DNA of 64,000 nt from Phycisphaerales bacterium Planc_01 (GTDB lineage: Bacteria; Planctomycetota; Phycisphaerae; Sedimentisphaerales; Anaerobacaceae): the NCBI GenBank assembly GCA_001603075.1, contig LVBB01000022.1, forward strand, positions 1 through 64,000. Reading direction: 5' to 3'. Of the stretch, positions 9,898 to 61,401 are shown piece after piece. The first letter of the stretch is position 1. Every line of letters begins with the position of its first letter. A program made the position numbers and the translations under genes. Below the pieces are notes generated by a model. It was given only the letters and a program-made list of their open reading frames with translations. It made no database searches and was not told the DNA's origin.

Positions 9898-10286
9898 CGT
9901 ACCGCTCCTTGAATGGAATGAGTGAATGGATGATAACCGTAAGTTCAGCACCAGCCCTCTCTTCGACCGGACAGAGGGCGTAGCTTTGGCGGAAACCACC
10001 TCAGGTCTTGCGAGTTGTCGGCGGTGCTCCGAAATCCCTCAAGCCAATGCAGACAATTTCAGCGAGGTCTCCGGAGGCAGCGGCGGTATGATATGCGACA
10101 ATAGAATGATAGCAACGAAACCGGATATGAAAGCCACTTCCGGCCGACCTCCGAACCTTCATCTATTACGCCGATTTTATCGGAATGTGCGTAGCAGTTC
10201 AAGCCCTTTCGTTTTGCCGTCGCCACCAACCGCCAGGAGAAGGGCACGGCCCCTTCCCACCGGCAAGAGGCCACACCATTCGTCCA
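9898..10286 (-). other. Intergenic region upstream of alpha-2-macroglobulin
   Basis: These 389 bases hold the promoter listed at 10174-10202 and otherwise no gene that I can support on either strand. Confidence 0.4.
10174..10202 (-). promoter_or_regulatory. Promoter for alpha-2-macroglobulin gene
   Basis: On the minus strand TTGAAC (10202-10197), a 17-base spacer and TAAAAT (10179-10174) form a good sigma70 match. The leader to the start codon would be about 270 nt. Confidence 0.5.
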
Positions 10287-39875: not shown

Positions 39876-40030
39876 TCGATTCCCTTCCGGTGATCTGCCA
39901 GATATCCCGTCGGCCGACATTCGGCAGTTGTTCGGAGGCGCACTATACCCCACGGCGCCCCCGTCGTCAACGACACCCGGCATCATGGAAAGGACGGATC
40001 GAAAGGAGCACCCTTGCCGCAGCCGGCATC

Positions 40031-41515
40031 CTACCACATCGGGTCCCAGACGGGCAGCTTCTGCGTCGGCTGGGCCAGAATCTTGCGGACCTCGTCGGGC
40101 ACGTCATCGCGATGCACGATGATGTTGTAGACGTTGTCGTCGAACCAGTCATCGTACATGGTCCAGAGTCCGCCGCTGCCCCGGTCGCTGCCCCAACTGT
40201 TCTCGACGAGCCACTTGACCGGCGTTCCGTCGACCAGATCGACGCCGATGAACGCCATGCCGTGATTGATCGTGCTGTCCCGCAAGAGGAGCCGCTCGGT
40301 CTTGTTCAGGCCCATGTCGAGGGCATAAACCGATTCGTAGTCGTACAGATTGCGGGCCATGATCCCGGCCTTGCTGTCCTGGTCGGGCGAGACGTCGGCG
40401 GCGAAGTAGACCGGCTGGTTGCTCAATAGCACCTTGACGACGAGGTCCTTGAGGGTCTGAATGTCCACGCTCGCATAGCTGGCGTTTCGTCCGTCGTACA
40501 GGTTCTTGGTCATCGCGATCTCGTAGTGACCGCCCTCCGGACGGATCGGATCGTTCGCCACGTTGACGTACTGACGCAGGTCCAGACCCACGAACTCGTC
40601 ATAGAACGATTGGGGCCTAAAGGTGCGCAGCACGCTCCAATCCTGCTCGACCCGGTAGCCGTCGTCCTTCTTCTCGCTGGCCTGGTCTTCGGCGGAATCA
40701 CCGTCATTCTCGGCCTTCTCCTCGTCGCCCTTGGCGGCCTTGCCTTTTGCCTTATGGCGCCAGGAGAACTCCTCCGGCGGCTCTCCCAGGTTCAGCACGA
40801 GCACGCGATACACCTCGGCCAGCATCTTCGGCTTGGCGTCGCGCATCTTCCGGACCGAGCCGGTCTCCTGGTAGATCTCGCGCATCTCGGCGGCGCTCTT
40901 GCGCAGCAGGCGCGCCAGGGCGCGGTTCATCATGCCCGTGTTCTCCGAGCTGGCGGTCTCGGCCATCGCCTCCTTCGGGATCACGCCGTATTTGGTAACC
41001 AGATCCACGAAGTTCTCCCAATACCCGCCATCCGAGGCCGGGTCTTTCAGCAGGAATACCATATCGCGGTCCTGGAGGTCCCGATCGCGGTACTCGATCA
41101 TGTATTCGAGGAAGCTGTTGGCCTTCTCCATCTTGTCCCAGAACTGAAGATAGATATGGGAGAACTCGAAGTCGTCCAGATCGAGCTTGTTGAGCACCAC
41201 CGGCTTGATCGTATTGAACCCGGCGAACATCCAGCATCGTCCGCTGCTCTTCTGGTTGCTGATGCCCTTGGTCTTGATCTTGTGGCTGAACTGCTTGTTG
41301 TGCGCCGCGAGAATCTCGCGGTTCTCGGCGATATCGCGGATGCCCGTGCTGGTCAGCGCGTTGCGCATCGCCCGCGCGTGCGCGTCCATCTGGAACTCGC
41401 TTCGAATCCGCTCGATCTGCGACGGCGCCAGCGCCCCGTCCTGGGCCGCCGCACCGGCCGAAAGAACCAACCACGCCAACAGCACCCCCATCAACCGCAC
41501 CATAGCATCTCTCAT
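40031..41515 (-). CDS. Exported bleomycin-hydrolase/aminopeptidase C-type peptidase (C1B)
   Basis: The 494-residue cysteine peptidase carries all three catalytic residues: Cys94 in SSGRCWMFAG, His418 in INHGMAF and Asn439 in VENSWGS. Relatives (PepC, Blh) are cytoplasmic hexamers, but here a signal peptide (MRDAMVRLMGVLLAWLVLSA) precedes the domain. A charged insert (residues about 265-300, Lys/Glu/Asp-rich) is also unusual. ATG 41515 has GGAGGT 5 bases upstream. It is divergent from the 41745 gene. Confidence 0.88.
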   Translation of the reverse strand: MRDAMVRLMGVLLAWLVLSAGAAAQDGALAPSQIERIRSEFQMDAHARAMRNALTSTGIRDIAENREILAAHNKQFSHKIKTKGISNQKSSGRCWMFAGFNTIKPVVLNKLDLDDFEFSHIYLQFWDKMEKANSFLEYMIEYRDRDLQDRDMVFLLKDPASDGGYWENFVDLVTKYGVIPKEAMAETASSENTGMMNRALARLLRKSAAEMREIYQETGSVRKMRDAKPKMLAEVYRVLVLNLGEPPEEFSWRHKAKGKAAKGDEEKAENDGDSAEDQASEKKDDGYRVEQDWSVLRTFRPQSFYDEFVGLDLRQYVNVANDPIRPEGGHYEIAMTKNLYDGRNASYASVDIQTLKDLVVKVLLSNQPVYFAADVSPDQDSKAGIMARNLYDYESVYALDMGLNKTERLLLRDSTINHGMAFIGVDLVDGTPVKWLVENSWGSDRGSGGLWTMYDDWFDDNVYNIIVHRDDVPDEVRKILAQPTQKLPVWDPMW

Positions 41516-41599
41516 CGGAGACCTCCAGATATCGCACCTGCATTTATGGTCACTTGACGCTCGCACCGAATCGGCATCCCGCCGCCGGTGGAAGGCTTC

Positions 41600-41628
41600 A
41601 CTATCGGCCCGGCTCGGCCCTCTGTCAA
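41600..41628 (-). promoter_or_regulatory. Promoter for bleomycin-hydrolase-type gene
   Basis: On the minus strand TTGACA (41628-41623), 17 bases and GATAGT (41605-41600) lie about 85 bases before ATG 41515. Confidence 0.5.
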
Positions 41629-41677
41629 CCCTTCTATTCCGTCAATTCGGCCGGCACGATCCCCGCGGCGTTCGGTA

Positions 41678-41706
41678 TTGACGGCCTCGCCGGACCGCTC
41701 TACGAT
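41678..41706 (+). promoter_or_regulatory. Promoter for pseudopilin-like gene
   Basis: TTGACG (41678-41683), 17 bases and TACGAT (41701-41706) lie about 38 bases before ATG 41745. Confidence 0.5.
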
Positions 41707-41744
41707 GACATGCGACAATCTCAGAAACGATGAAGGGGCAGGCT

Positions 41745-42290
41745 ATGAACGCACGCAAGAACGAACGATCGAACCGTGCTCTGATCCCCATGCGGCGGAC
41801 GAACGGCGGCGCGATCGTCAATCTCGTCTTTGCCGTGGTCTTCTTCGGGCTGCTCGCCCTTGGCGTCGTCTGGCTTCTCAAAATGGTCGGCGATGCGGGT
41901 CAGCAATATTCCACCGCCATGGTCCAGACCAGCCACAGGGCCTCGGCGTTGAAGTGCCAGAACAATCTGCGCACGATCGCGCAGAGCATCCAGATGTATG
42001 CCATCGGCAATGAGAGTCTGCCGCCAACCCAGCAGGCTTTGATGGACTACTGCGGCTACGGATCGCGATTGTTCCATTGCGACGAACCCAACGCGCCGCA
42101 GTACGTCTACATCGCGGGCCAGAGCCTGGACATGCCGCCGACGAACGTCCTGCTGTACGAGCCGCAGCCCGTCCACGATGGCAAGTGCAGCGTCCTGTTC
42201 CTCGACGGCCAGATCGCCATGCTCAGCCCCGAGGAGCTGAAATTCGCCGTCGAAGCCACCGTCGCGATCATCGAGCGAAGGCAGAGATGA
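41745..42290 (+). CDS. Pseudopilin-like protein with C-terminal DG motif
   Basis: The 181-residue protein has one N-terminal transmembrane helix (about 26-47, IVNLVFAVVFFGLLALGVVW), then SALKCQNNLRTIAQSIQMYA typical of planctomycete type II-pseudopilin-like proteins, and a C-terminal HDGKCSVLFLDGQIAML (H-x9-DG) motif. Unlike the 57661 prepilin it lacks the Gly-Phe-Thr-Leu-Ile-Glu processing site. AAGGGG precedes ATG 41745; ATG 41730 is an alternative. Confidence 0.65.
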   Translation: MNARKNERSNRALIPMRRTNGGAIVNLVFAVVFFGLLALGVVWLLKMVGDAGQQYSTAMVQTSHRASALKCQNNLRTIAQSIQMYAIGNESLPPTQQALMDYCGYGSRLFHCDEPNAPQYVYIAGQSLDMPPTNVLLYEPQPVHDGKCSVLFLDGQIAMLSPEELKFAVEATVAIIERRQR

Positions 42291-42297
42291 CGACCGT

Positions 42298-42768
42298 TCA
42301 GCCGACCCGGCCAACCATCCGACAGACCGTTTCGAGGTGGATGCGATCCACGTCGTCGAAGGCTGCCGGCTGATCGGAATCGATATCGAGCACCGCCACC
42401 AACTCGCCCTGCGGCGTAAGTACGGGCACCACGATCTCCGAACGCGTCGAGTGCGAACAGGCGATATGACCGTCAAACGCGCGAACGTCCGGCACGATCT
42501 GGGTCTGCCGCAGGCGCGCGGCGGCGCCGCACACGCCTCGGTCGAAAGAGATCTCCAGGCACCCATGCGGGCCCTGATAGGGACCGACCTTGAGCACCCC
42601 CCGCGCAACGACGCGATAGAACCCCGTCCAGTCGAACCACTCGAATCGGTTGTGCAACTCGCACACCACCGTCGCCATGACCGCAATCAGGTCCGTCTCA
42701 GCCGCGATCAGCCGCTCGATGCCATCGATGGTCCGGTCATACAACTGGTGTTTCTCGTTCGAATCCAT
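42298..42768 (-). CDS. Free methionine-(R)-sulfoxide reductase (GAF domain)
   Basis: The 156-residue GAF protein has the fRMsr signature: GPYQGPHGC, RGVCGAAA and GHIACSHSTRSEIVVP, providing three Cys positions matching those of E. coli YebR. It reduces free L-methionine-(R)-sulfoxide and is cytoplasmic. The residue after HIAC is Ser rather than the commoner Asp. It converges with the 41745 gene, with 7 bases between the stop codons. Confidence 0.88.
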   Translation of the reverse strand: MDSNEKHQLYDRTIDGIERLIAAETDLIAVMATVVCELHNRFEWFDWTGFYRVVARGVLKVGPYQGPHGCLEISFDRGVCGAAARLRQTQIVPDVRAFDGHIACSHSTRSEIVVPVLTPQGELVAVLDIDSDQPAAFDDVDRIHLETVCRMVGRVG

Positions 42769-42791
42769 TGCTCATCCGATGGCAGGGCGTG

Positions 42792-43601
42792 CTACCGCTC
42801 GATCGCGCCGTCGGCCCCAGGCGGCGGACAGGGATGCGTGAACGGGAGGCGGCCACCCGGCCATGCCCCTTTGGCGTCGTGCTGCAGAGCCGCGTAATTC
42901 CGGGCCAGTTCGATCACCGCGTCATCGCTTTCGTCGACATATAACTCCAGCCAATGTCCCTCGACCCCCTTCTTCGCGACCCGTATCCCCGCCGCCAGGC
43001 GTCCGCGATGGTCGCCGCCGGCACAGTCGCCCGCGACGAGCGCCGCCATCAGGCGGTCGGCGAAGCTGCCCTGCGTCTGCTCGTAGGCCCGGGCCATGGC
43101 GAAGACGACTTCGCAACCGGCCAGCGTATTGCCCTGGCAGGCGTAGTATCGGCCGCTGGCAGCACCCCACCACAGGCCCGATGGGTCGGCGTCGGCCGGA
43201 TTGCGGTTGGCCGCCCGGCCCGACATGTCGATGATCGCCAGTTGCCGCTTGTCCCGACGCGGGTCGTCCCGCAACAGTTCGGCAAGGACCTGCTCGGGCA
43301 GATGCCCCTCGGCCAGCAAGTCCAATGCCTGCTCGGCCCACGCGGGATTGTGCCAATGCTGCGTGCAGAAGGCGCCGACGCCGGCGCGCACGTACGGAAC
43401 CACCTTGCCCACCGCCGGGTACTTGCTCGCCACCGCGGCGCCGCAAACACCCGTATTGGGGTCGACCGCCACGATGGAGAACGTCCCGGATACGGCCATC
43501 CGCAAACCGTGGCCTGATTGCACGGCTTGGGGCTCCGCGCCCGGCCGGCATCCGAAGAGAATCACAACAACGAACAGGGACATGCGCCATAGTGTCTGCA
43601 T
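42792..43601 (-). CDS. DUF1028 family lipoprotein
   Basis: The 269-residue protein has a lipoprotein signal (MSLFVVVILFGC) and a DUF1028 domain: AVSGTFSIVAVDPNTGVCGA, then VGKVVPYVRAGVGAFCTQ and LLAEGHLPEQVLAELL. DUF1028 has an Ntn-hydrolase-like fold, and its Thr after Gly (here GTFS) is the proposed nucleophile; the substrate is unknown. The start is uncertain: ATG 43601 sits 6 bases from a -10-like sequence (leaderless candidate), while ATG 43667 has GGAGGA upstream. Its first part is the parent of the chimeric gene at 45633-45896. Confidence 0.75.
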   Translation of the reverse strand: MQTLWRMSLFVVVILFGCRPGAEPQAVQSGHGLRMAVSGTFSIVAVDPNTGVCGAAVASKYPAVGKVVPYVRAGVGAFCTQHWHNPAWAEQALDLLAEGHLPEQVLAELLRDDPRRDKRQLAIIDMSGRAANRNPADADPSGLWWGAASGRYYACQGNTLAGCEVVFAMARAYEQTQGSFADRLMAALVAGDCAGGDHRGRLAAGIRVAKKGVEGHWLELYVDESDDAVIELARNYAALQHDAKGAWPGGRLPFTHPCPPPGADGAIER

Positions 43602-43607
43602 GGCTCC

Positions 43608-43636
43608 CATAAACACCGCGACGGTCGCTCTGTCAA
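43608..43636 (-). promoter_or_regulatory. DUF1028 promoter abutting start codon
   Basis: On the minus strand TTGACA (43636-43631), 17 bases, TTTATG (43613-43608), 6 bases, then ATG 43601. The -10 box is weak (3 of 6), but the same arrangement is kept in the related copy at 45903-45931. Confidence 0.4.
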
Positions 43637-43772
43637 GCATCCATCTCCTCCGCTGAATCGCCGTCATCGTCTCCTCCAGAACCGAAACGCATACCAAGAC
43701 CGAGGCGGATCACCCCCCAACATCGGCGACGGCCGCGTCAGGAGGGGAAGTCCCCAGGACCTCCAGCTTCTT

Positions 43773-45560
43773 CTACAGCGGCCAGAACCAGAGGATCAGC
43801 GGCACCCCCGCAGCAATGACGAGAATCGATAGGGGCAGACCCATCCGCCAATAGTCGCCGAACGTGTATCCGCCGGGGTCCATGACCAGGGCGTTGGACT
43901 GATGGCCGATTGGGGTCAGGAACGCACACGACGCCCCGACGGCAACCGTCATCAGGAACGGATCGGCACTGGCGTCGATGCTCCCGGCCAGGCTCACGGC
44001 GATCGGCGCCATCAGGATCGCGGCGGCAGCGTTGTTGATAATGTTGCTCAGCAGCATCGTGCCGACCATCAGGATCACCAGCGTCGTCGCCGGTGTCGCT
44101 GCCTGGGCGATGCTGTGCAAGCGACCGGCGATCAGATCGGCGCTTCCGGTGGTTTCAAAGGCCCGGCCAATCGGGATCATCGCACCCAGCAGCACGACGA
44201 CAGGCCAGTCGATACTCTTGTACGCCTCGGCTGGCGACAACAATCCGGATGCGATCAGTGCCAGCGCCGCGCACGTCAGCGTGATGGGGGCCGGCAGCAC
44301 ACCGAAGGCAACAAGCGACATCGCCAGAACAAATATTGCCACCGCAAGCAGCACCTTGCGTGGTTTCCCGATCCGCAGCCCGCGCTCGGCCAGCCGCAGG
44401 CACCCCAGTTCCGACAGCGTTGACGGCAGTGAGTCATTGCCGCCCTGGACCAGCAAGATGTCCCCGGCCAGAAAGCGGATACGTCCCAGTCGTTGCTTCA
44501 GTTGTTTGCCGCGACGGGCCACGGCAATGACGTTGATCCCATACCGTTCGCGGAGGTCCAGGCCCGAGGCGGTCTTGCCGATCAACAGAGATTCCGGGGC
44601 CACGATCGCTTCCACCACACCGACCTCTTCGGATTCGATGGCCTTGGTGTCGTCTTGTTCTTTGTCGCCTTCAATGAATTCCAGTCCACCGTCGTCGATC
44701 AGGCTTCTGAGGCTGTCCGAGTCGGTTTCAACCATCAGGATGTCGCCGGAGTGCAAAACTCGATACATCGACGGCGCCAGAATCCGCTTTTCGCGACGCA
44801 CCAGAGCAACGACCGAAACGTCTTCTTTGCTGGGCATAGCCGCCAGCAGATCGTGGAGCGGAAGGCCAACGAACTTGCTGTCCTCCCGCAGGCGGACTTC
44901 ACTGATGTAATCGCTGATTCTGAATGGATCCTCCGGACTGTCTTTTTCCGGGTGTTTGGGAATCAGCCGCCAGCCGATCAAGGCGATAAAGATGACTCCG
45001 ATGAGGGTCACACCAAGGCCAACGGGCAGAAAGCCGAACATCCCAAAGGGCGCTGTCCCATCCTGTGCGCGGTATGCTGCGATGATCATGTTCGGAGGCG
45101 TACCGATCAGCGTCAACGATCCGCCCAGCAGCGACCCGAACGCCAGCGGCATCAGCATCAGCGATGGGGAACGGCCGCTCTTTCGCGACATCCAAATCGT
45201 TACCGGCATCAGCAACGCCAGTGCCCCGACATTGTTCATGAAGCCTGAGCAAGCCGCCACGAGCCCTGTCATCGCCAACACCTGCACGGTCGGACGGTCG
45301 CCGATCCGACCCAACTGTCGTGCCATGACGTCGATCACACCGGCATTGATCAGTCCACGGCTCACGACCAGCACCGCGACAACCGTTACCACCGCCGGAT
45401 GTCCAAAGCCGGAGAAAACCTCATCGGGCGGCACGATGCCCGTGATGGCAACAACCAGCAACGCGGCAATGGACACCACGTCATACCGCCAGCGATTCCA
45501 GACGAACATGCCCAGAGTGGCTGCCAGAACACCGAAGACGACAAGTTGCTGTGTATTCAT
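43773..45560 (-). CDS. SLC13/DASS-family transporter with TrkA-C domains
   Basis: The 595-residue protein has membrane helices at both ends and a central cytoplasmic region (about 205-375) with two RCK-C/TrkA-C domains (around SVVALVRREKRILAP and INVIAVARRGKQLKQ). Transport signature blocks are FMNNVGALALLMPV, GTPPNMII and SNIINNAAAAILMAP. This family (DASS, YfbS/SdcS type) moves di- or tricarboxylates or sulfate with Na+; the substrate is not deducible. ATG 45560 has AAGGA 9 bases upstream. Confidence 0.88.
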   Translation of the reverse strand: MNTQQLVVFGVLAATLGMFVWNRWRYDVVSIAALLVVAITGIVPPDEVFSGFGHPAVVTVVAVLVVSRGLINAGVIDVMARQLGRIGDRPTVQVLAMTGLVAACSGFMNNVGALALLMPVTIWMSRKSGRSPSLMLMPLAFGSLLGGSLTLIGTPPNMIIAAYRAQDGTAPFGMFGFLPVGLGVTLIGVIFIALIGWRLIPKHPEKDSPEDPFRISDYISEVRLREDSKFVGLPLHDLLAAMPSKEDVSVVALVRREKRILAPSMYRVLHSGDILMVETDSDSLRSLIDDGGLEFIEGDKEQDDTKAIESEEVGVVEAIVAPESLLIGKTASGLDLRERYGINVIAVARRGKQLKQRLGRIRFLAGDILLVQGGNDSLPSTLSELGCLRLAERGLRIGKPRKVLLAVAIFVLAMSLVAFGVLPAPITLTCAALALIASGLLSPAEAYKSIDWPVVVLLGAMIPIGRAFETTGSADLIAGRLHSIAQAATPATTLVILMVGTMLLSNIINNAAAAILMAPIAVSLAGSIDASADPFLMTVAVGASCAFLTPIGHQSNALVMDPGGYTFGDYWRMGLPLSILVIAAGVPLILWFWPL

Positions 45561-45632
45561 TACGATCGATCCTTCTGCCCGCGACGCAAGCCCCCCCGAT
45601 CGAGACTCAATGCCGGATGATGCAAACATCGT

Positions 45633-45896
45633 TCACCAGCCAAGGACGCAGATGCCAAGCTGGTCGGCCAGGGCGATGGTCTGGGGCGTATCGATCACGA
45701 TGGTCTTGCCCGCTTCGATCGCCAGGCGCGCGGCGCCGCAGAGGCCCGTGTTGGGGTCAACCGCCACGATGGAGAACGTCCCGGAAACGGCCGCCGGGCA
45801 ATCGCCGCTCAATCGCGCGGTGCGGGATTCCGAACTCTGCCGGCACCCCCATGCGATCCAGGCAACGAGCAGCGATATCGACAACAGCCTCTGCAT
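45633..45896 (-). pseudogene. Chimeric gene: DUF1028 lipoprotein N-terminus joined to LpxI C-terminus
   Basis: An 87-residue frame, fully open. Residues 1-54 look like the DUF1028 gene (lipoprotein signal MQRLLSISLLVAWIAWGC, then AVSGTFSIVAVDPNTGLCGA); residues 55-87 look like the LpxI C-terminus (RLAIEAGKTIVIDTPQTIAL, then ADQLGICVLGW). The junction is an 11-base GC-rich sequence (45729-45739) present in both parents (43434-43444 and 52703-52713). The upstream promoter boxes are also kept. It may be an expressed lipoprotein or a decaying remnant; I call it a pseudogene because neither domain is complete. The last residue, Trp, differs from LpxI. Confidence 0.7.
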
Positions 45897-45902
45897 GGCC
45901 TC

Positions 45903-45931
45903 TATAGAAACGCCCGTCGCGATTCTGTCAA
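45903..45931 (-). promoter_or_regulatory. Promoter copy upstream of chimeric gene
   Basis: On the minus strand TTGACA (45931-45926), 17 bases, TCTATA (45908-45903), 6 bases, ATG 45896. It is related to the DUF1028 upstream sequence. Confidence 0.4.
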
Positions 45932-45969
45932 GCGTCCGTCCGCGCCGGCGCCGACAGGAAAACGCAGAC

Positions 45970-45998
45970 TTGACCGGCCCGAAGGCAGGTGATACGGT
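45970..45998 (+). promoter_or_regulatory. Candidate promoter for oxidoreductase gene
   Basis: TTGACC (45970-45975), 17 bases and TACGGT (45993-45998) lie about 50 bases before ATG 46048. Confidence 0.4.
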
Positions 45999-46047
45999 GG
46001 AACCGTCGGCATGATCCGTTCCACATGACAATAAGGAGTGGCAAACG

Positions 46048-47367
46048 ATGCAGCGCAAACTGACCCGCCGTACCTTCCTCCGCAACGCCGCCTGGGCCGG
46101 CTCAAGCCTGGTCGTCCTGTCCAACAGTCGACTGGTGCGAGGGACCTTGGCCAACAGCAAGCTCAACATCGCCGGGATCGGCATCGGCGGTCGCGGTGCC
46201 GCGAACATCCAGGGCGTGGCGAGCGAGAACATCGTCGCTCTCTGTGACGTCGACGAGAAGCACGCCGCCGCGACGTTCGAACAGCATCCCGGCGCCAAGC
46301 GGTTCAAGGATTTCCGCAAGATGCTCGACGCGGTGCACAACCAGATCGACGCGGTCGTGATCGGCACGCCGGACCATACGCATGCCCCGGCCGGCGTGAT
46401 GGCCATGAAGCTCGGCAAGCACTGCTACTGCGAGAAGCCGCTGACCCACAGCGTCTATGAGGCCCGGCTGATGGCGAATATCGCCCGCGAGAAAGGGCTC
46501 GTGACACAGATGGGCACGCAGATCCACGCCGAGAACAACTACCGCCGCGCCGTCGAGCTGGTGCAAAGCAACGCCATCGGTCCCGTGCGCGAGGTTCACG
46601 TCTGGTTGGGGGCCAATTTCGACGGTCCGCCCAAGCCCACCGACATGAGCCAGCCGAACGCGCCGACCGACCATGTGCCCGTGCCGGCAGGTCTCGACTG
46701 GGACCTCTGGCTCGGACCGGCGTCGTACCGCTTCTACAGCCCCGCCTATGCACCGTTCCACTGGCGATACTGGTGGAACTTCGCCAACGGGCAACTGGGC
46801 GACTTCTTCTGCCACTACTGCGATCTGGCCTTCTGGGCGCTGAAGCTGCGGCATCCGACCACGGTCGAGGCCGAAGGACCCGTCCATCCGGAGAGCACCG
46901 CCAAATGGACCATCGCACGCCAGGAGTACCCCGCTCGCGGCGACCTGCCGCCGGTGGCGCTGACCTGGTACAACGGCGGCGGCTATCCGGCGCTCGTCAA
47001 GGAGAGGAACGTGCCGCAGTGGTCCAGCGGCGTGCTGTTTGTCGGCAGCAAGGGCATGCTGCTGGCCGACTACGGCCGGCACCAACTGCTGCCTGAGGCG
47101 GAGTTCGCCGGTTTCCAGCCGCCCGATCCATTCATTGCGAATTCCATCGGCCATCATCGCGAATGGATCGAGGCGTGCAAGACGGGCGGGCCGACCACGT
47201 GCAATTTCGACTACTCCGGCGCGCTGACCGAGGCGGCCCTGCTGTGCAACGTGGCGCTGCGCACGGGCGAGAAGCTCACGTGGGACGCCGCCAACCTCAA
47301 GGCCATTGGCTGCCCACAGGCGGATGCGTATATTCAGCGTCCCTACCGACGGGGATGGACGCTCTGA
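46048..47367 (+). CDS. TAT-exported Gfo/Idh/MocA-family oxidoreductase
   Basis: The 439-residue protein has a twin-arginine signal (TRRTFLRNAAWAGSS) and an NAD(P)-binding Rossmann fold: LNIAGIGIGGRGAANIQG, then VALCDVDE and CEKPLTHS (family Lys). Family members oxidise or reduce sugars or act as glycosidases by redox steps; TAT-exported ones are common in planctomycetes and Bacteroidetes polysaccharide loci. AGGAG is 9 bases before ATG 46048. The two-domain hydrolase at 47396 follows after 28 bases. Confidence 0.9.
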   Translation: MQRKLTRRTFLRNAAWAGSSLVVLSNSRLVRGTLANSKLNIAGIGIGGRGAANIQGVASENIVALCDVDEKHAAATFEQHPGAKRFKDFRKMLDAVHNQIDAVVIGTPDHTHAPAGVMAMKLGKHCYCEKPLTHSVYEARLMANIAREKGLVTQMGTQIHAENNYRRAVELVQSNAIGPVREVHVWLGANFDGPPKPTDMSQPNAPTDHVPVPAGLDWDLWLGPASYRFYSPAYAPFHWRYWWNFANGQLGDFFCHYCDLAFWALKLRHPTTVEAEGPVHPESTAKWTIARQEYPARGDLPPVALTWYNGGGYPALVKERNVPQWSSGVLFVGSKGMLLADYGRHQLLPEAEFAGFQPPDPFIANSIGHHREWIEACKTGGPTTCNFDYSGALTEAALLCNVALRTGEKLTWDAANLKAIGCPQADAYIQRPYRRGWTL

Positions 47368-47395
47368 GAGCTGGCCGTAGCAGGAGATCGACGAC

Positions 47396-49564
47396 ATGAA
47401 CGAACAACGGAGGACCCGAACCAGCGCCGGATTGGGATGGATGTTCCTGGCAATGGCGATCCTCTCGCCGGGTTGGGACCGCGCGGCGCGGGCGGCCGCG
47501 ATTTCACCGATCGCGCTGCACCCGGAGAACCCCCACTACTTCCTCTGGCGGGACAAGCCCACCATCCTGATCACGTCGGCCGAACACTACGGCGCGGTGC
47601 TGAACCGCGCGTTCGACTACGTCAAGTACCTCGACACGCTTGAGACCAACGGATTCAACATGACGCGGACCTTCAGCGGCGCCTACTGCGAGCCGCCGGG
47701 CGCGTTCAACATCGAGAAGAACACGCTCGCGCCGGCCAAAGGAGATCTGCTCTGTCCGTGGGCGCGCAGCGACACGCCGGGCTATACCAACGGGGGCAAC
47801 AAGTTCGACCTGACGAAATGGGACCCGGAGTACTTTCGGCGTCTGACCGACTTCGTCGCCCAGGCGGGCCGACGCGGCATCGTCGTGGAGATGGTTCTGT
47901 TCTGCCCGTTCTACGAAGACAGCATGTGGGAATTGAGCCCGATGAATTCCCGCAACAACGTCAACGACGTCGGGACCATGCCGCGCACGGAGGTCTACAC
48001 GCTCAAGCACCCCAGACTGCTGGCGATCCAGGAGGCCATGATCCACAAGATCGTGGAAACCCTGGAGGGATTCGACAACCTCTACTACGAGATCTGCAAC
48101 GAGCCCTACTTCGGCGGCGTCACCATCGACTGGCAGCACCACATCGCCGAGACCATCGCCGGCGCCGAATCGAAGTTCCAGCACAAGCACTTGATCGCGC
48201 AGAACATCGCCAACAAGGCCCAGGTCGTCGAGAACCCCAGCCCTCACGTTTCGATCTTCAACTTCCACTACGCCAAGCCGCCGATCGCGGTGGCCCAGAA
48301 CTACCACTGGGACCGCGTGATCGGCGACGATGAGACCGGGTTCGCCGGCGACGACCGGGTCAAGCCATATCGGCTCGAAGGATGGGACTTCATCGTCGCC
48401 GGAGGAGCGATCTTCAACAATCTGGATTACTCCTTCGCGGTCGGCCACGAAGACGGATCGGCCAGAATCAACGCGCCGGGCGGGGGCGGTCCCGAACTCT
48501 GGCACCAGTTGGGCTTCCTTCGGGACTTCATCAACGGCTTCGATTTCATTCGTATGCGTCCGGACGACTCGGTCCTCACCTCGGATCTGCCCGACGGCAC
48601 CACGGCGCGGGCGCTGGTGCAGCCGGGCGTTGCCTATGCGATCTACGTCAATGGTAACAACGCAACCCGGCTGACCGTCGATCTGCCCAGTGGCGCCTAC
48701 AAGGCTGAGTGGATCGACACGAAGACCGGGCAGATCGCAGATGCCCAATCGTTCACGCACGACAGCGGCCTCCATCCGCTCGATGTGCCGCCGTACGCCG
48801 ACGATATCGCCCTGCGGATCGTCAGCACCCAGCGGCCGCGCCAGGGATTGCTGTTCGAAAGCGATTTCGAAACCGAAGACCTCAAGGGCTGGAGGACATC
48901 GGGCAACGCCCCGCGTGTCACCGGCGCCCTCGCCCGGGCCGGCCGGCAGGCCATGCAGACCTCGCTCGATCGCGACAGAGACAGGGTTTCGTACCGTACC
49001 GAGGTCAGCGGCCCCGGCGCCGACGTCGGCAAAGAGTACTGGTATGGTTTCAGCATCCTGCTGCCTGAGGATTACCAGCCCGACGGGATATGGGAGATCG
49101 TGGCCCAGTGGCACGGCGTGCCCGACTTCGACATCGGCGAAGACTGGCGCAATCCCGTCATGGCGCTGTCCACGACCGGCGGCCGCTGGGGCTGGGTCAG
49201 CCGCTGGGACGCCAAACGCAATACGTTCGAAAGCGGGACCCGCCAGTACGGCGGGACGCAGCACTACGATCTTGGTCCCTACCGCAAAGGCGTCTGGACC
49301 GACTGGGTCGTTCATGTCAAATGGTCGTATGGACGGGACGGATTTCTGCGCGTCTGGAAAGACGGCGTCGAGGTCGTCGACCAGAACGGGCCCAACGCGT
49401 TCAACGACGAGCGCGGCCCCTATTTCAAGATGGGCCTCTATAAGGGTTGGGCCGATGCCGATCGGCCCAGCGATGCCGTGAGCCGGCGCATCCTCTACCA
49501 TGACGAGTTCCGCATGGGCGGAGCCGAGGCCGGCTACGACGACGTCGCGCCCGGACCACGGTGA
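47396..49564 (+). CDS. Exported GH5-like glycoside hydrolase fused to a polysaccharide lyase-like domain
   Basis: The 722-residue protein has a signal peptide (about 1-34), then a cellulase-type TIM barrel (about 40-370): FLWRDKPTILITSAEHYG, EICNEPYF with the probable acid/base Glu236, and IGDDETGF with a possible nucleophile Glu. A linker leads to a C-terminal jelly-roll (about 485-720) with YWYGFSILLPEDYQPDG and EIVAQWHG, as in heparin lyase I/PL20-like lyases. The fusion combines hydrolysis and binding or beta-elimination; the substrate is unknown. The mnmA gene overlaps its stop by 4 bases. Confidence 0.75.
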   Translation: MNEQRRTRTSAGLGWMFLAMAILSPGWDRAARAAAISPIALHPENPHYFLWRDKPTILITSAEHYGAVLNRAFDYVKYLDTLETNGFNMTRTFSGAYCEPPGAFNIEKNTLAPAKGDLLCPWARSDTPGYTNGGNKFDLTKWDPEYFRRLTDFVAQAGRRGIVVEMVLFCPFYEDSMWELSPMNSRNNVNDVGTMPRTEVYTLKHPRLLAIQEAMIHKIVETLEGFDNLYYEICNEPYFGGVTIDWQHHIAETIAGAESKFQHKHLIAQNIANKAQVVENPSPHVSIFNFHYAKPPIAVAQNYHWDRVIGDDETGFAGDDRVKPYRLEGWDFIVAGGAIFNNLDYSFAVGHEDGSARINAPGGGGPELWHQLGFLRDFINGFDFIRMRPDDSVLTSDLPDGTTARALVQPGVAYAIYVNGNNATRLTVDLPSGAYKAEWIDTKTGQIADAQSFTHDSGLHPLDVPPYADDIALRIVSTQRPRQGLLFESDFETEDLKGWRTSGNAPRVTGALARAGRQAMQTSLDRDRDRVSYRTEVSGPGADVGKEYWYGFSILLPEDYQPDGIWEIVAQWHGVPDFDIGEDWRNPVMALSTTGGRWGWVSRWDAKRNTFESGTRQYGGTQHYDLGPYRKGVWTDWVVHVKWSYGRDGFLRVWKDGVEVVDQNGPNAFNDERGPYFKMGLYKGWADADRPSDAVSRRILYHDEFRMGGAEAGYDDVAPGPR

Positions 49565-50616
49565 CGGCCGACAGACACAACGTGGTCGTCGCCCTGAGCG
49601 GGGGCGTCGACAGCTCCGTCGCTGCGGCCCTGCTGCTCGAATCGGGCTGCAACGTCCAGGGCGTGTTCATGATCACCTGCGAGCAGGGCCGCCGTGCCCA
49701 GGCGGAAGCCGAAGAGGTGGCCCGCCGCCTCGGCCTCCAGTTGACCGTGCTGGATCTGTGCGACGACTTTGCGCAGATTCTCGGCTACTTCTTCGACGAA
49801 TACGCCAAGGCCCGCACGCCCAACCCCTGCGTGATGTGCAACCGGCTGGTCAAGTTCGGCAAGCTCTGGGATTTTGCCCGCCAGGCGCAGGCCGAGTACC
49901 TCGCCACCGGTCATTACGCCAAAGTGCTCCAGCGCGATGGAGCCGTCGGCCTCTACGAAGGCGCGGACCCGGCGAAGGACCAGTCCTACGCCCTGTCGAT
50001 GATCCGCCGCGACGTGCTCGCTCACGTCCTGCTGCCCATGGGCGAACACTCCAAGGACCAGACCCGACAGATCGCGCGACGACTGGCCCTCGGCACAGAG
50101 GCCAAAGCGGAGTCGCAGGAGATCTGCTTCATCCCCGACGACGACTATGTCGCGTTGCTCGAACGGCGCCACCCTGAACTGATCCGGCAAGGCCAGATCG
50201 TGGACTGTTCCGGCAAGGTGCTCGGCACGCACCAGGGCATCCACCGTTTCACGATCGGCCAGCGGCGCGGCCTGCGCGTGGCGATGGGCAAGCCCTACTA
50301 TGTTATCGGTCTCGACGCTGGCAGCAACACGGTGATCCTGGGCCCGAAGGAAGAGGTGATGCACCGCCGCCTGACAGCCGGCGAAGTGAACTGGCTAATC
50401 GAGCCACCTCAGTCCGCTTTCAGCGCGACGGTCAAGATTCGCTACAACGACCGCGGCAAGCCTGCGACGGTGCATCCGGTCGGTCGCCTCGCCGAGGTCG
50501 AATTCGACAAACCCAACATGGCCATCACGCCCGGACAGCTCGCCGTCTTCTACGTGGACGAAGGCCGCCTGCGACGCGTCGCGGGCGCCGGATGGATCGA
50601 ACGAGCCGACGATTGA
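49561..50616 (+). CDS. mnmA: tRNA 2-thiouridylase MnmA
   Basis: MnmA thiolates U34 of tRNA-Lys, -Glu and -Gln with ATP and a relayed persulfide. The 351-residue protein has the PP-loop ALSGGVDSSVAA, the first catalytic Cys90 in NPCVMCNRLVKF, the second Cys189 in SQEICFIPD and the conserved GQRRGLRV in the C-terminal half. The start is GTG, overlapping the stop of the 47396 gene (GTGA), so translation is probably coupled. It is shorter at the N-terminus than some homologues but complete. Confidence 0.92.
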   Translation: MTADRHNVVVALSGGVDSSVAAALLLESGCNVQGVFMITCEQGRRAQAEAEEVARRLGLQLTVLDLCDDFAQILGYFFDEYAKARTPNPCVMCNRLVKFGKLWDFARQAQAEYLATGHYAKVLQRDGAVGLYEGADPAKDQSYALSMIRRDVLAHVLLPMGEHSKDQTRQIARRLALGTEAKAESQEICFIPDDDYVALLERRHPELIRQGQIVDCSGKVLGTHQGIHRFTIGQRRGLRVAMGKPYYVIGLDAGSNTVILGPKEEVMHRRLTAGEVNWLIEPPQSAFSATVKIRYNDRGKPATVHPVGRLAEVEFDKPNMAITPGQLAVFYVDEGRLRRVAGAGWIERADD

Positions 50617-50657
50617 ACGTTGATGAAGTCCATTCACACAGATGAGGCGATCGAGTC

Positions 50658-50686
50658 TTGCCGTCCAGCCGAGGAGGAGGTATAAT
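50658..50686 (+). promoter_or_regulatory. Strong promoter close to GT9 start codon
   Basis: TTGCCG (50658-50663), 17 bases and a perfect TATAAT (50681-50686). Transcription would start near 50693, leaving only about 5 bases before ATG 50698. Confidence 0.6.
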
Positions 50687-50697
50687 CAACGGTCATA

Positions 50698-51777
50698 ATG
50701 GCGCAGACCAGCAACGACATTCTGAGTTTGCTCGAAGCCGAAGGCGCCCAGGCGGCCAAGGAGGCCCAACGAGGTGTCATTCTTCAGCCGGGGGCCCTGG
50801 GCGACTGCATCTTGACGCTGCCCCTGGTCAAGGTGATGACCGAGGCGCTGGGGCTCGGCGGCGTCGATCTCGTCGGGCATAGCGAGTATATCGGCATCCT
50901 GCCGGGCCGCAGTTGCGTCAGCGGCATCCGTTCCATCGACTCCACCGAGTTGCACCGCCTCTTCGTCGAGCCGGACAAGTTCGATCTGGCCGACCGCGAT
51001 CCCCTGATCAACACGTTCGCCGACTACGCATGGATCGTCACGTTTCTTGGCGAGCCGGACGGACCCTTCGAACAGAACCTGATTTTCACGGCCAATTGCA
51101 GCCACAGCGCCGAGATCATCACCCTGTCGCTCAAACCGCCCCAGGACACCGGGCAGCACGTCGCGGAGCACTACGTCCGCCAGTTCGCTCGTCAGAGCGG
51201 CCTGCCGCCGGACCGCGCCGGCATCGCCGCCACCGAACCGCTGATCCGTGTCACCGACGCCGATCGCGAACGAGGGCTCGACATGCTCGAACAGACGGGC
51301 ATCGATCCGTCCAAGCGGCTGGTGGTGATCCACCCCGGCAGTGGTGGACGCCATAAATGCTGGCACATCAGCAACTTCCTCGGCATCGCACAGGCGCTTC
51401 GCGCCGGCGCAATCGAGGTCCTGTTTCTGCTCGGACCGGCGGAGGTGGAACGCTTCGAGAATATCGACAAGGCGCGCCTGTACGGTGCCGCCAAGTGCGT
51501 CGCGCATCTTTCGCTCAGTCAGGTCGTCGATCTCCTGGCCTGCACCGACGCCGTCGTGGGCAATGACAGCGGGGTCACGCATCTGGCCGCTGGGTTGGGG
51601 TTGCGCACGTTCGCTATGTTCGGTCCGACCGATCCGGCCCTGTACAAACCCATCGGTCCGGCGGTAACAGTCCTTCAGGACCCGCACGACCGGTTCACCC
51701 GTCAGCCCAATCCCGACCTCCAAAGGGCCGTTATCGAAGGCATCCTCGCGTCCCCTTCCGACGGCCCTGTGCACTAA
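50698..51777 (+). CDS. Glycosyltransferase family 9 (heptosyltransferase-like)
   Basis: The 359-residue GT-B enzyme has the GT9 blocks VILQPGALGDCILTLPL (N-terminal), VVIHPGSGGRHKCW and VGNDSGVTHLAAGLGLRT (C-terminal nucleotide-sugar site). GT9 proteins add heptose or similar sugars to lipopolysaccharide core. Together with LpxI just downstream this supports an LPS-type envelope. No ribosome site precedes ATG 50698. Its predicted 5' leader is about 5 bases. Confidence 0.85.
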   Translation: MAQTSNDILSLLEAEGAQAAKEAQRGVILQPGALGDCILTLPLVKVMTEALGLGGVDLVGHSEYIGILPGRSCVSGIRSIDSTELHRLFVEPDKFDLADRDPLINTFADYAWIVTFLGEPDGPFEQNLIFTANCSHSAEIITLSLKPPQDTGQHVAEHYVRQFARQSGLPPDRAGIAATEPLIRVTDADRERGLDMLEQTGIDPSKRLVVIHPGSGGRHKCWHISNFLGIAQALRAGAIEVLFLLGPAEVERFENIDKARLYGAAKCVAHLSLSQVVDLLACTDAVVGNDSGVTHLAAGLGLRTFAMFGPTDPALYKPIGPAVTVLQDPHDRFTRQPNPDLQRAVIEGILASPSDGPVH

Positions 51778-51972: not shown

Positions 51973-52809
51973 ATGACGGAGCCCAACGTCGTCGGTCTGA
52001 TCGCAGGCGGAGGCCGGCTGCCTTTTATGGTGGCCGCCGGCGCCAGAGCATCGGGCTGCCGCGTGGTGTGTGTCGGGCTGGCCGGCTACGTGGACGCATC
52101 GCTGGCGGCCGAGGTGGACGTATTCTACGAAGCCGCCGTGGCCCGTCCCGGCAGTTGGATTCGCCGCCTCCGCAAACATGGCGCGATCGATACGATCATG
52201 GTCGGCACCGTCACGAAGTCGCACCTGTTCACGCGGAGGCGCATCCTGCGCTACGTGCCGGACTGGCGGGCGTTCCGCATCTACTACTGGCGGCTTCGCG
52301 GCCGGCCCAAACAAACAGACGTGCTCCTGAGGGCCCTGGCCGACGAGCTGGCCACCGGCGGCATTCGCTTGGAGAACTCCACGATGTACTGCGAGCAATA
52401 CATGGCCGATTCGGGCGTCATGACGAAACACCAGCCCGGCGCACAGGTGCTTGGCGATATCGAGTTCGGCTGGCCGCTGGCCAGGCAGCTCGGCGACATG
52501 GACATCGGCCAGGCGATCGCCGTCCGCGAACGGGAAGTGATCGCCGTCGAGGCCATCGAGGGCACCGCCGAGATGATCAAGCGGGCCGGCCAGTTCTGCA
52601 AGGCCGGAGGATGGACCCTCATCAAGACCGCCAAGCCCAAGCAGGATCCGCGCTTCGATGTCCCCTGCGTCGGACCCGAGACGATCCGTGACCTCGCCGC
52701 CGGCGGCGCCGCGTGCCTGGCGATCGAAGCGGGCAAGACCATCGTCATCGACAAGCCCCAGACCATCGCCCTCGCCGACGAGTTGGGCATCTGCATCGTC
52801 GGCCGCTGA
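51973..52809 (+). CDS. lpxI: UDP-2,3-diacylglucosamine pyrophosphatase LpxI
   Basis: LpxI hydrolyses UDP-2,3-diacylglucosamine to lipid X in lipid A biosynthesis, replacing LpxH in many bacteria. The 278-residue protein has VVGLIAGGGRLPFMVA at the N-terminus, VGTVTKSHLF in the middle, the block VIAVEAIEGTAEMIKRAG and a C-terminus CLAIEAGKTIVIDKPQTIAL. This last part was copied into the chimeric gene at 45633-45896. It converges with the 52827 TPR gene, with 17 bases between the stop codons. An AGGAC sequence precedes the ATG. Confidence 0.9.
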   Translation: MTEPNVVGLIAGGGRLPFMVAAGARASGCRVVCVGLAGYVDASLAAEVDVFYEAAVARPGSWIRRLRKHGAIDTIMVGTVTKSHLFTRRRILRYVPDWRAFRIYYWRLRGRPKQTDVLLRALADELATGGIRLENSTMYCEQYMADSGVMTKHQPGAQVLGDIEFGWPLARQLGDMDIGQAIAVREREVIAVEAIEGTAEMIKRAGQFCKAGGWTLIKTAKPKQDPRFDVPCVGPETIRDLAAGGAACLAIEAGKTIVIDKPQTIALADELGICIVGR

Positions 52810-52826
52810 GCGCGCCGGACCTCGGA

Positions 52827-58778: not shown

Positions 58779-60908
58779 ATGTCCATGAGCCTGAAGGATT
58801 CGATTGCCTGTAGTGTCCTGGCGTTCCTGGCGACGATGGCCTCATCAAATCCGGCAGCCGTCGGCGGTGCGGGTCCGGCCGAGCCGGACGCCTACGACGA
58901 CCACCAGCACATGATGGACCAACTGGGGATCCGGGCCCTGCGTCCAGGCGAGAGCGGCCAGAATCAGGAGCGGTTCACCGAGGAGAAGGCCAATCCCTAC
59001 CACGACACGATGCCCGATGTGCTGACGATGAAGGACGGAACCAGGGTGACCAGGCCGGAGCAATGGGCCGCGAGGCGTGCGGAAATCGTCGAGGACTTCG
59101 AGCGTGAGGTGTACGGGCGGATTCCGCCGAACGTACCGAAGGTGACCTGGGAGGTGACGGCGACGACCGATGGCAACAGCGCAGGCATCCCGATCGTCAC
59201 CAGGACGCTGGTCGGTCACGTCGACAATTCGGCGTGCCCGCAGATCGCGGTGAACATCGCGGCGAGCTTCACCGTCCCGGCCGGAGCAACCGAGCCCGTA
59301 CCCATGATGCTGGAGTTTGGATTCGGCGGCTTTGGCGGCGGCCGTGGCGGGCCATCCTGGATGCAGCAGGCCATCGCCCACGGCTGGGGCTATGGCTTCA
59401 TCAATCCCGGCAGCATTCAGGCCGACAGGGGCGGCATGAGCCTGCGCCAGGGCATCATCGGCCTGACCAACAAGGGCGAGCCTCGCCAGCCTGACCAATG
59501 GGGCGCCCTGCGGGCCTGGGGCTGGGGCGTCAGCCGGCTGATCGACTTTTTCGAGGCCAACCCCGACGTCAAGGTGGACGCGAGGAAGGTCGGCATCGAG
59601 GGCGTCTCCCGCTTTGGGAAGGCCGCATTGGTCGCGGCCGCTTTCGACGAGCGCATCGCGGTCGCCTTTGTCGCCTCCTCAGGCGAAGGCGGCGCGAAAC
59701 TGCATCGGCACATCTTCGGCGAGGCGCTCGAGAACCTCACCGGCAAGGGCGAATATCACTGGATGGCCGGCAATTTCCTCAAGTACGGCGCATCCGATCC
59801 CTGCATGACGGCGGCCGATCTGCCGGTGGACTCGCACGAGCTGATCGCCCTGTGCGCCCCGCGTCCGTGCTTCATCAGCTACGGAGTCCCTCCGGGCGAT
59901 CCGCCTTGGGTGGATGCCCGTGGCAGCTTCATGGCCGGCGTGCTGGCCGGCCCGGTATACGAACTCCTGGGCAGGAAGGGTTTCGGCACGCCGGGCAACT
60001 ACCTGACCGACCCGATGCCTCCGGTTGGAACGTTGACCGGAGGCGAGTTGGCCTGGCGCCAGCACGAAGGCGGCCACACGTCGGGCCCCAACTGGCCGGT
60101 CTTCTTCGAATGGATAGGACGGTACATCAAGGCCCCGCCGCTGCCGGCGGCGGCATCCACCGAACTCGCTGCCGTTCGATCCGTCGAACGCACGGACCAG
60201 AACTCGCGAACCGCCCATGCCCAGTTGCTCGACAAGGCCCGCAAGGGCCGCATCGATGTCTACTTCGAAGGCGATTCCATCACGCGCCGCTGGGGAGCGT
60301 TGGACTATCCCCAGTTGCTGGCCAACTGGAGAGAGAACTTCTTCGGCTGGAACGCGGCGAATTTCGCCTGGGGCGGCGACGGCACCCCGAACATCCTCTG
60401 GCGTCTGGAGAACGGAGAACTCGACAACGTTCATCCCAAGGTGATTGTGCTCATGGCCGGCACCAACGACGTCGGCGGCTCGCCCTCACGCGGGGCCGAC
60501 GATCCGAGGATCGCAAAAGTGACTGCAGGCATCGAGGCCATTCTGAACATCTGCCGCAAGAGGGCGCCCCAGGCCACGATCATCCTGACGGGCATCACCC
60601 CTCGCAACGACCGCTCCGCCAATCCCACGGCGGTCATGCCCGTGATCGCCAGGATCAACGGGAACATCGCCAAGCTCGCCGACGGCAAGACGATCCGCTA
60701 TCTCAACATCAACGACCAGCTCGCCGACCAGGACGGCAGGCTATACGACGGAATGACGGTCGATGGGCTGCACCTGTCGCTCAAGGGCTACCAGGTCTGG
60801 GCCGACGCCCTGAAACCGATCCTGATCGAACTGCTCGGCCCGCCCGCCGACGAGGACCACGCCCCGCCCCCCACCGGCGATCCCAGCGCAGCGCTCAAGC
60901 AGCCATAG
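58779..60908 (+). CDS. CE15 glucuronoyl esterase-like domain fused to SGNH hydrolase
   Basis: The 709-residue exported protein has a signal peptide (about 1-27). The N-terminal alpha/beta-hydrolase (about 60-440) has GVSRFGKAAL with nucleophile Ser277 in the CE15 motif and a downstream QHEGGHTSGPN His block. The C-terminal SGNH hydrolase (about 485-690) has FEGDSIT (Ser500), WGGDGTPN, MAGTNDVG and DGLHLS. CE15 enzymes cleave glucuronoyl esters that link lignin to xylan; SGNH domains often remove acetyl groups, so the two may act together on hemicellulose. The specificity is inferred. Confidence 0.85.
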   Translation: MSMSLKDSIACSVLAFLATMASSNPAAVGGAGPAEPDAYDDHQHMMDQLGIRALRPGESGQNQERFTEEKANPYHDTMPDVLTMKDGTRVTRPEQWAARRAEIVEDFEREVYGRIPPNVPKVTWEVTATTDGNSAGIPIVTRTLVGHVDNSACPQIAVNIAASFTVPAGATEPVPMMLEFGFGGFGGGRGGPSWMQQAIAHGWGYGFINPGSIQADRGGMSLRQGIIGLTNKGEPRQPDQWGALRAWGWGVSRLIDFFEANPDVKVDARKVGIEGVSRFGKAALVAAAFDERIAVAFVASSGEGGAKLHRHIFGEALENLTGKGEYHWMAGNFLKYGASDPCMTAADLPVDSHELIALCAPRPCFISYGVPPGDPPWVDARGSFMAGVLAGPVYELLGRKGFGTPGNYLTDPMPPVGTLTGGELAWRQHEGGHTSGPNWPVFFEWIGRYIKAPPLPAAASTELAAVRSVERTDQNSRTAHAQLLDKARKGRIDVYFEGDSITRRWGALDYPQLLANWRENFFGWNAANFAWGGDGTPNILWRLENGELDNVHPKVIVLMAGTNDVGGSPSRGADDPRIAKVTAGIEAILNICRKRAPQATIILTGITPRNDRSANPTAVMPVIARINGNIAKLADGKTIRYLNINDQLADQDGRLYDGMTVDGLHLSLKGYQVWADALKPILIELLGPPADEDHAPPPTGDPSAALKQP

Positions 60909-61401
60909 GGAACGCTCTTGAACAACCCCTGCGACCAAGGCCCCATCGCCGCAAAGCGCGCATGACAAGGGCCTGTATCGTTGGCGCTTGGCACTTGGCG
61001 GTCTTGCTTATTGACTCAAAAATCAACATTGCCAAGTGCCAAGCGACAGACACACAGGCACGCTGTCACGCGCGGAATGACAAAGGGGCTGTGTCGTTGT
61101 CGTTTGTCGCTTGGCGGTCTTGCTTATTGACTCAAAAATCCACATTGCCAAGTGCCAAGCGACAGACACACAGGCACGTTGTCACGCGCGGAATGACAAA
61201 GGGGCTGTGTCGTTGTCCTTTGTCGCTTGGCGGTCTTGCTTATTGACTCAAAAATCAACATTGCCAAACGACAAGCGACAGGAACACAGGCACGTTGTCA
61301 TGCGCGCTTGGAGTGATGCTGTCAGGCGTGATCTTGCCTGAGCGTAGGATGCCCGGCGGGGGCGAATGATGATTCGCCCCTGCTTCGGAGAGCTCAAGGC
61401 A
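60909..61401. other. Intergenic region with tandem hairpin repeats
   Basis: The 493 bases hold no supported gene; frames that run through the repeat are artefacts. The repeat array is listed separately. Confidence 0.6.
60961..61307. repeat. Three tandem ~116-bp units with hairpin arms
   Basis: Units start at 60961, 61076 and 61192 (periods 115 and 116 bases) and are 80-95% alike by eye. Each has a core (GGTCTTGCTTATTGACTCAA) flanked by inverted arms. In unit 1 the arms CGCTTGGCACTTGGC and GCCAAGTGCCAAGCG are perfect complements; arms in units 2 and 3 are imperfect. No transposase is adjacent. Confidence 0.85.

Follow-up and report, generated by a model that had tools for sequence, protein, structure and literature searches.

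A chimeric DUF1028-lpxI reading frame in a Phycisphaerales genome, probably the scar of a foreign gene import

Introduction

In the genome of Phycisphaerales bacterium Planc_01 (here G000) a short open reading frame begins like a gene of the DUF1028 family and ends like lpxI, and intact genes of both kinds lie on the same stretch of DNA, which raises the question how such a fused frame came about and whether it is a gene in its own right. The window analyzed here comprises 64,000 nucleotides of contig LVBB01000022.1 (assembly GCA_001603075.1). A sequence-only reading had derived both halves of the chimera from these neighbors and had regarded the product as either a very recent rearrangement or a new lipoprotein in the making. 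Comparison with related genomes suggests another history: at a probability of roughly 80%, a foreign block of ~2.3 kb entered the native DUF1028 gene and left the chimera behind as a truncated stub. A literature search under the name "DUF1028" found no paper on this family.

Anatomy of the Chimeric Reading Frame

The fused frame is real (Table 1). It is open over its entire length, and in it 56 codons from the start of a DUF1028 gene run in frame into the last 31 codons of an lpxI gene. In a base-by-base alignment of the three loci, positions 45940-45729 match the DUF1028 gene at 43645-43433 with 158 of 206 aligned bases identical and 12 gap positions, in which the alignable region takes in ~45 bp upstream of the ATG, and positions 45739-45630 match lpxI at 52703-52813 without gaps (96 of 110 bases identical). 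The string GCGGCGCCGCG is found at the joint, in the DUF1028 gene (43434-43444) and in lpxI (52703-52713), in both own genes at the corresponding codons. An identical run of at least 11 bases across a random pair of same-phase sites was obtained in 18 of 1,000,000 draws from the coding sites of ten window genes. The earlier view that the fusion took place at a microhomology was right. The own DUF1028 and lpxI genes have two 11-mers in common overall, so that a shared 11-mer in itself is ordinary and it is the exact position at the joint that matters.

Table 1. Features of the locus, in window coordinates.
Feature	Position	Strand	Basis or remark
Chimeric ORF	45633..45896	-	87 codons, DUF1028 start and lpxI end; read as truncated stub (scar)
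Joint, 11-bp microhomology GCGGCGCCGCG	45729..45739	-	Base alignment and chance test
Second copy of the 11-mer, inside intact DUF1028 gene	43434..43444	-	
CitMHS/DASS-like transporter, probably imported, 595 aa	43773..45560	-	Pfam PF03600, TrkA_C, PF00939
Native DUF1028 start in ancestral place beside Gfo/Idh	45740..45896	-	Identity of codons 1-39 and synteny
Intact DUF1028 gene, donor-like codons 1-39 with promoter region	43485..43645	-	62-65% nucleotide identity to every sampled version over codons 1-39
Intact DUF1028 gene, mosaic: foreign leader and native body	42792..43601	-	PF06267, 206 bits
Inserted block	43434..45728	.	2295 bp relative to empty site; blastn against G001, G005, G002
Promoter-like boxes, native: TTGACA 45926-45931, TATAGA 45901-45906	45897..45931	-	Conserved spacing to ATG
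lpxI gene end, probably of another lineage	45633..45728	-	13/96 bases differ from own lpxI
Resident lpxI, the formerly proposed parent; the tail probably has another source	51973..52809	+	Site patterns

The first 56 residues of the chimeric protein are those of a DUF1028 start (PF06267; the solved structure 2imh is a relative), but the protein lacks nearly all of the domain, and no Pfam match to PF06267 was obtained at E<=0.001. Its last 31 residues correspond to the end of LpxI, the UDP-2,3-diacylglucosamine hydrolase (4ggm, 4j6e), of whose 278 residues it keeps only these, and its score against LpxI_C (PF06230) was 22.9 bits, under the cut-off of 25. The lipobox region, read by eye, runs ...IAWGC and places a tryptophan two positions before the cysteine. 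Tryptophan is unusual at this position of a lipobox. Among 61 relatives, 57 contain some match to one or the other half at E<=0.01, and a match across the whole frame was found in the own genome alone; among 89 family genomes five match at E<=1e-10, again with whole-frame coverage confined to the own one. Within these samples the whole frame was seen in this genome alone, and the proposed new lipoprotein in the making finds no support in this distribution.

The Empty Site in Congeners

Three congeners, G001, G005, and G002, were compared at this site with G000, of which the window is a part. All three show the gene order GAF, a single intact DUF1028 gene and Gfo/Idh, without a transporter. By blastn, window positions 40029-43616 correspond to 6526-10115 and positions 45729-51777 to 9933-15982 of contig L048 of G001, so that the two stretches overlap there, and the same kind of overlap of two window stretches on one contig is seen in G005 and G002. 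The 2295 extra bases of the window are bracketed by a duplicated DUF1028 5' region (43434-43645 and 45729-45940), whose copies are direct repeats in the same orientation, and no native DNA is missing at the site, as the corresponding stretches of G001, G005, and G002 are covered gap-free. DUF1028 genes occur once each in five of the six genus genomes; G004 gave no DUF1028 match, and in G003 the DUF1028 gene and lpxI are ~290 kb apart. In the same region the window, G001, and G005 carry a whole mnmA gene at a place where G002 (L051 8427-8730, between a GH-like gene and GT9) retains a decayed one, of which only MnmA residues 80-127 were matched.

Direct repeats around a block allow its clean loss. 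The insertion might hence be older than the split from G001 and G005, with recombination between the DUF1028 starts having later removed it from both and restored the gene, and its age would then explain the divergence of tail and leader described below. We regard such an older insertion as unlikely, since it requires repeated loss among genomes that are nearly equidistant (G000, G001, and G005 at 89.4-91.3% over the shared block) and since G002 is also without the block.

Which DUF1028 Copy Is Native

The sequence-only reading had taken the intact DUF1028 gene as the parent of the chimera's 5' half. The comparison contradicts this: the start carried by the chimera is the original one and adjoins Gfo/Idh as in G001, G005, and G002. 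Over codons 1-39 the chimera is identical to G001 at 110 of 117 nucleotides and to G005 at 103 of 117, and the same codons of the intact gene reach 73/117 to the chimera, 74/117 to G001, 76/117 to G005, and 74/117 to G002 (62-65%). The body of the intact gene shows 95-96% identity to G001 over 43433-43034 and 91% over 43033-42792. It follows from these identities that the chimera keeps the native promoter and start, and that the intact gene is a mosaic in which the leader of another lineage is set on the native body. The switch from leader to body falls within 43484-43398, where the sequences are too alike for a finer placement. The promoter boxes, which had been thought to have come along with a copied start, are likewise native to their place.

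When the leader of the intact gene was searched in the 89 family genomes, 26 matched at E<=1e-7, and the best matches after the own genome were G005 (66%), G002 (68%), and G001 (60%), each across all 62 residues. In the spacer upstream of the intact gene (43602-43697) the frame of the gene stays open back to a TTG at 43697, so that a longer DUF1028 product is possible, though position 43601 is the conserved start.

Origin of the lpxI Tail

Beyond the 11-mer and with the stop codon included, the tail comprises 96 bases, 13 of which differ from the resident lpxI. Seven of the 13 differing states are present in G001, G005, or G002, and the single base that is specific to the own lpxI is not shared by the tail. 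Four states are private, being absent from all seven lpxI genes compared, and two of them alter residues that are conserved in all seven (C to R and K to T); the private changes may date from after the fusion or may already have been present in the donor. The final tryptophan of the tail is not private, as the lpxI of G036 also ends in W. A tree joins the tail to G005 with an ultrafast bootstrap of 79%, a weak placement from ~100 bases. The tail probably stems from another lpxI lineage, as judged from these site patterns, and copying from the resident lpxI, as formerly proposed, is probably not its origin. Since neither half of the chimera is near-identical to any sampled sequence, the description of the fusion as very recent is unsupported.

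These results also bear on an internal rearrangement in which the DUF1028 start would have been copied from 42792-43601 and the lpxI end from 51973-52809. Both sources lie within 7 kb and both own genes contain the 11-mer, but the 5' half stands in its ancestral place and is closer to G001 than to its supposed parent, the tail is without the own-specific base and has more than half of its differences in common with congeners, and the transporter would require a separate event. Copying from the neighbors is thus contradicted by synteny and identity for the 5' half and unlikely by site patterns for the 3' half, and we consider this explanation very improbable as a whole.

The full 11-mer is absent from the lpxI genes of G005 and G002, a point against the import model described below. 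Downstream of lpxI a TPR gene is found in the window, G001, and G002, and other genes in G005, G003, G004, and G036, none of which, as named by eye, is a transporter of the kind described below. A stretch of 188 bp just 3' of lpxI in G005 (L050 5304-5491) matches window positions 60726-60912, ~8 kb past the window lpxI, and L051 1195-1382 of G002 at 91-92%; this displacement makes the 3' side of lpxI in G005 look like a rearrangement point.

The Imported Transporter and the Search for a Donor

Between the two DUF1028 starts lies the transporter gene, which at E<=1e-100 was found in one of the 89 family genomes, namely the own one. Among 392 phylum genomes, drawn evenly, 17 including the own one carry it at E<=1e-120, with 62% identity for the best other match. 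A genome_contigs scan, whose reach is limited to close relatives and which may miss near records, gave 27 loci with at most 59% identity. Searched as DNA, positions 43602-45640 matched only in pieces of 29-70 bp in four of the other 88 family genomes, and the inserted block has no second copy in the own genome. No donor was found in the 89 family genomes, the 392 phylum genomes or the genome_contigs scan, and 41 transporter loci, the 14 from the phylum search being only ~3 kb long, yielded neither a DUF1028 nor an LpxI match at E<=1e-3. The third-position GC of the transporter is 0.75, slightly under that of ten other window ORFs including the chimera (0.78-0.87).

A plausible source is an unsampled congener in which the transporter lies 3' of lpxI, and the block would then have come from within the genus. 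Against the import reading, the two donor-like pieces have no common nearest relative: the leader shows no preference among the sampled congeners, all of which are about as distant, and the tail is nearest to G005. The origin of the block in another congener and the order of events are inferred here.

A Model for the Import

A donor block that would account for this layout is ordered lpxI 3' end, transporter, and DUF1028 promoter with the first codons, all in one direction, and would have entered the native DUF1028 gene at approximately codon 55. On one side a homologous crossover would have occurred in the conserved stretch at 43484-43398, and on the other side DUF1028 would have been joined to lpxI at the GC-rich 11-bp microhomology. 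The product would be a whole gene with donor start and native body, a truncated copy in which the native promoter and start run into the imported lpxI tail, and the import in between.

With a circle closed at the 11-mer, a single crossover at any point within ~30 codons would give exactly the observed layout, and we lean toward such a circular intermediate, at somewhat less than even odds, over a linear fragment. Insertion-duplication by single crossover is the Campbell-type integration of a circle that carries a gene fragment. The locus resembles it: the import lies between direct repeats of a gene fragment, of which one copy is whole and mosaic and the other truncated, and no native DNA is lost relative to the empty site. 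A difference is that the truncated copy here terminates in a scrap of lpxI, joined through 11 bp of microhomology.

The second route within the import reading, tentative and somewhat less favored, is a linear fragment that entered by homology-facilitated illegitimate recombination (HFIR), with one end anchored in DUF1028 and the other at the microhomology. The combination of one homologous joint, one microhomology joint, and non-homologous cargo is that of HFIR, in which, according to PMC3240628, the illegitimate joint commonly shows 3-10 bp of microhomology and native DNA is usually deleted, the deletion being of similar size. The joint described here, in contrast, has 11 bp and no accompanying deletion, and the illegitimate joint of a linear fragment must by chance fall within ~30 codons of the crossover. 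The microhomology at such a joint was judged with the own and the G001 lpxI standing in for the donor bases.

The insertion is carried by one genome assembly only, and this assembly consists of 162 contigs with an estimated contamination of 3.84%, so that misjoined pieces of two related genomes could be suspected. Such an error would have to occur twice, at points 2.3 kb apart, and hit one stretch of a single gene both times, in one case on an overlap of 11 bp, which is shorter than usual assembly overlaps, and we rate it as highly unlikely. A transposon with an 11-bp target duplication was rejected as well, because the import brings a DUF1028 start with it, and this start breaks off at the very codon at which the target was opened.

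Promoters and Possible Expression

In all five DUF1028 starts compared, TTGACA stands exactly 29 nt before the ATG (window 45897-45931 and 43602-43636; L048, L050, L051). TATAGA or TATAGG ends 4 nt before the ATG in four of them, the intact window copy being the exception, which would let the transcript start fall at the ATG, so that DUF1028 is possibly leaderless. A sigma-70 scan with spacers of 16-18 nt found no promoter; between the boxes described here the spacer measures 19 nt. From the chimera stop it is 72 bp to the start of the transporter, and the intact DUF1028 gene follows 171 bp past the transporter. Given the native boxes and the 72-bp spacing, the native promoter may now serve the imported transporter, into which it could read through the chimera, and the intact DUF1028 gene may be transcribed from the imported leader. 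Terminator-like sites number six against 2.4 expected from shuffles; none was detected in the two intervals that separate the transporter from the chimera and from DUF1028, and two minus-strand sites lie early inside the transporter gene.

The chimera itself is most likely a truncated copy of the DUF1028 gene, a scar of the import without function. It might instead act as a small envelope protein or a leader peptide, made from the native, apparently leaderless promoter and tuning the transporter downstream, but we consider such a role improbable.

Conclusion

The locus serves as a warning that a chimeric gene beside its apparent parents need not derive from them. As the empty sites in three relatives, both joints, the mosaic gene, and the leftover stub can be read together, it provides an unusually legible natural record of how a gene without visible mobile-element parts would have entered the chromosome. 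If the chimera were expressed in such a role after all, the entry of foreign DNA would have created a new gene in a single step.
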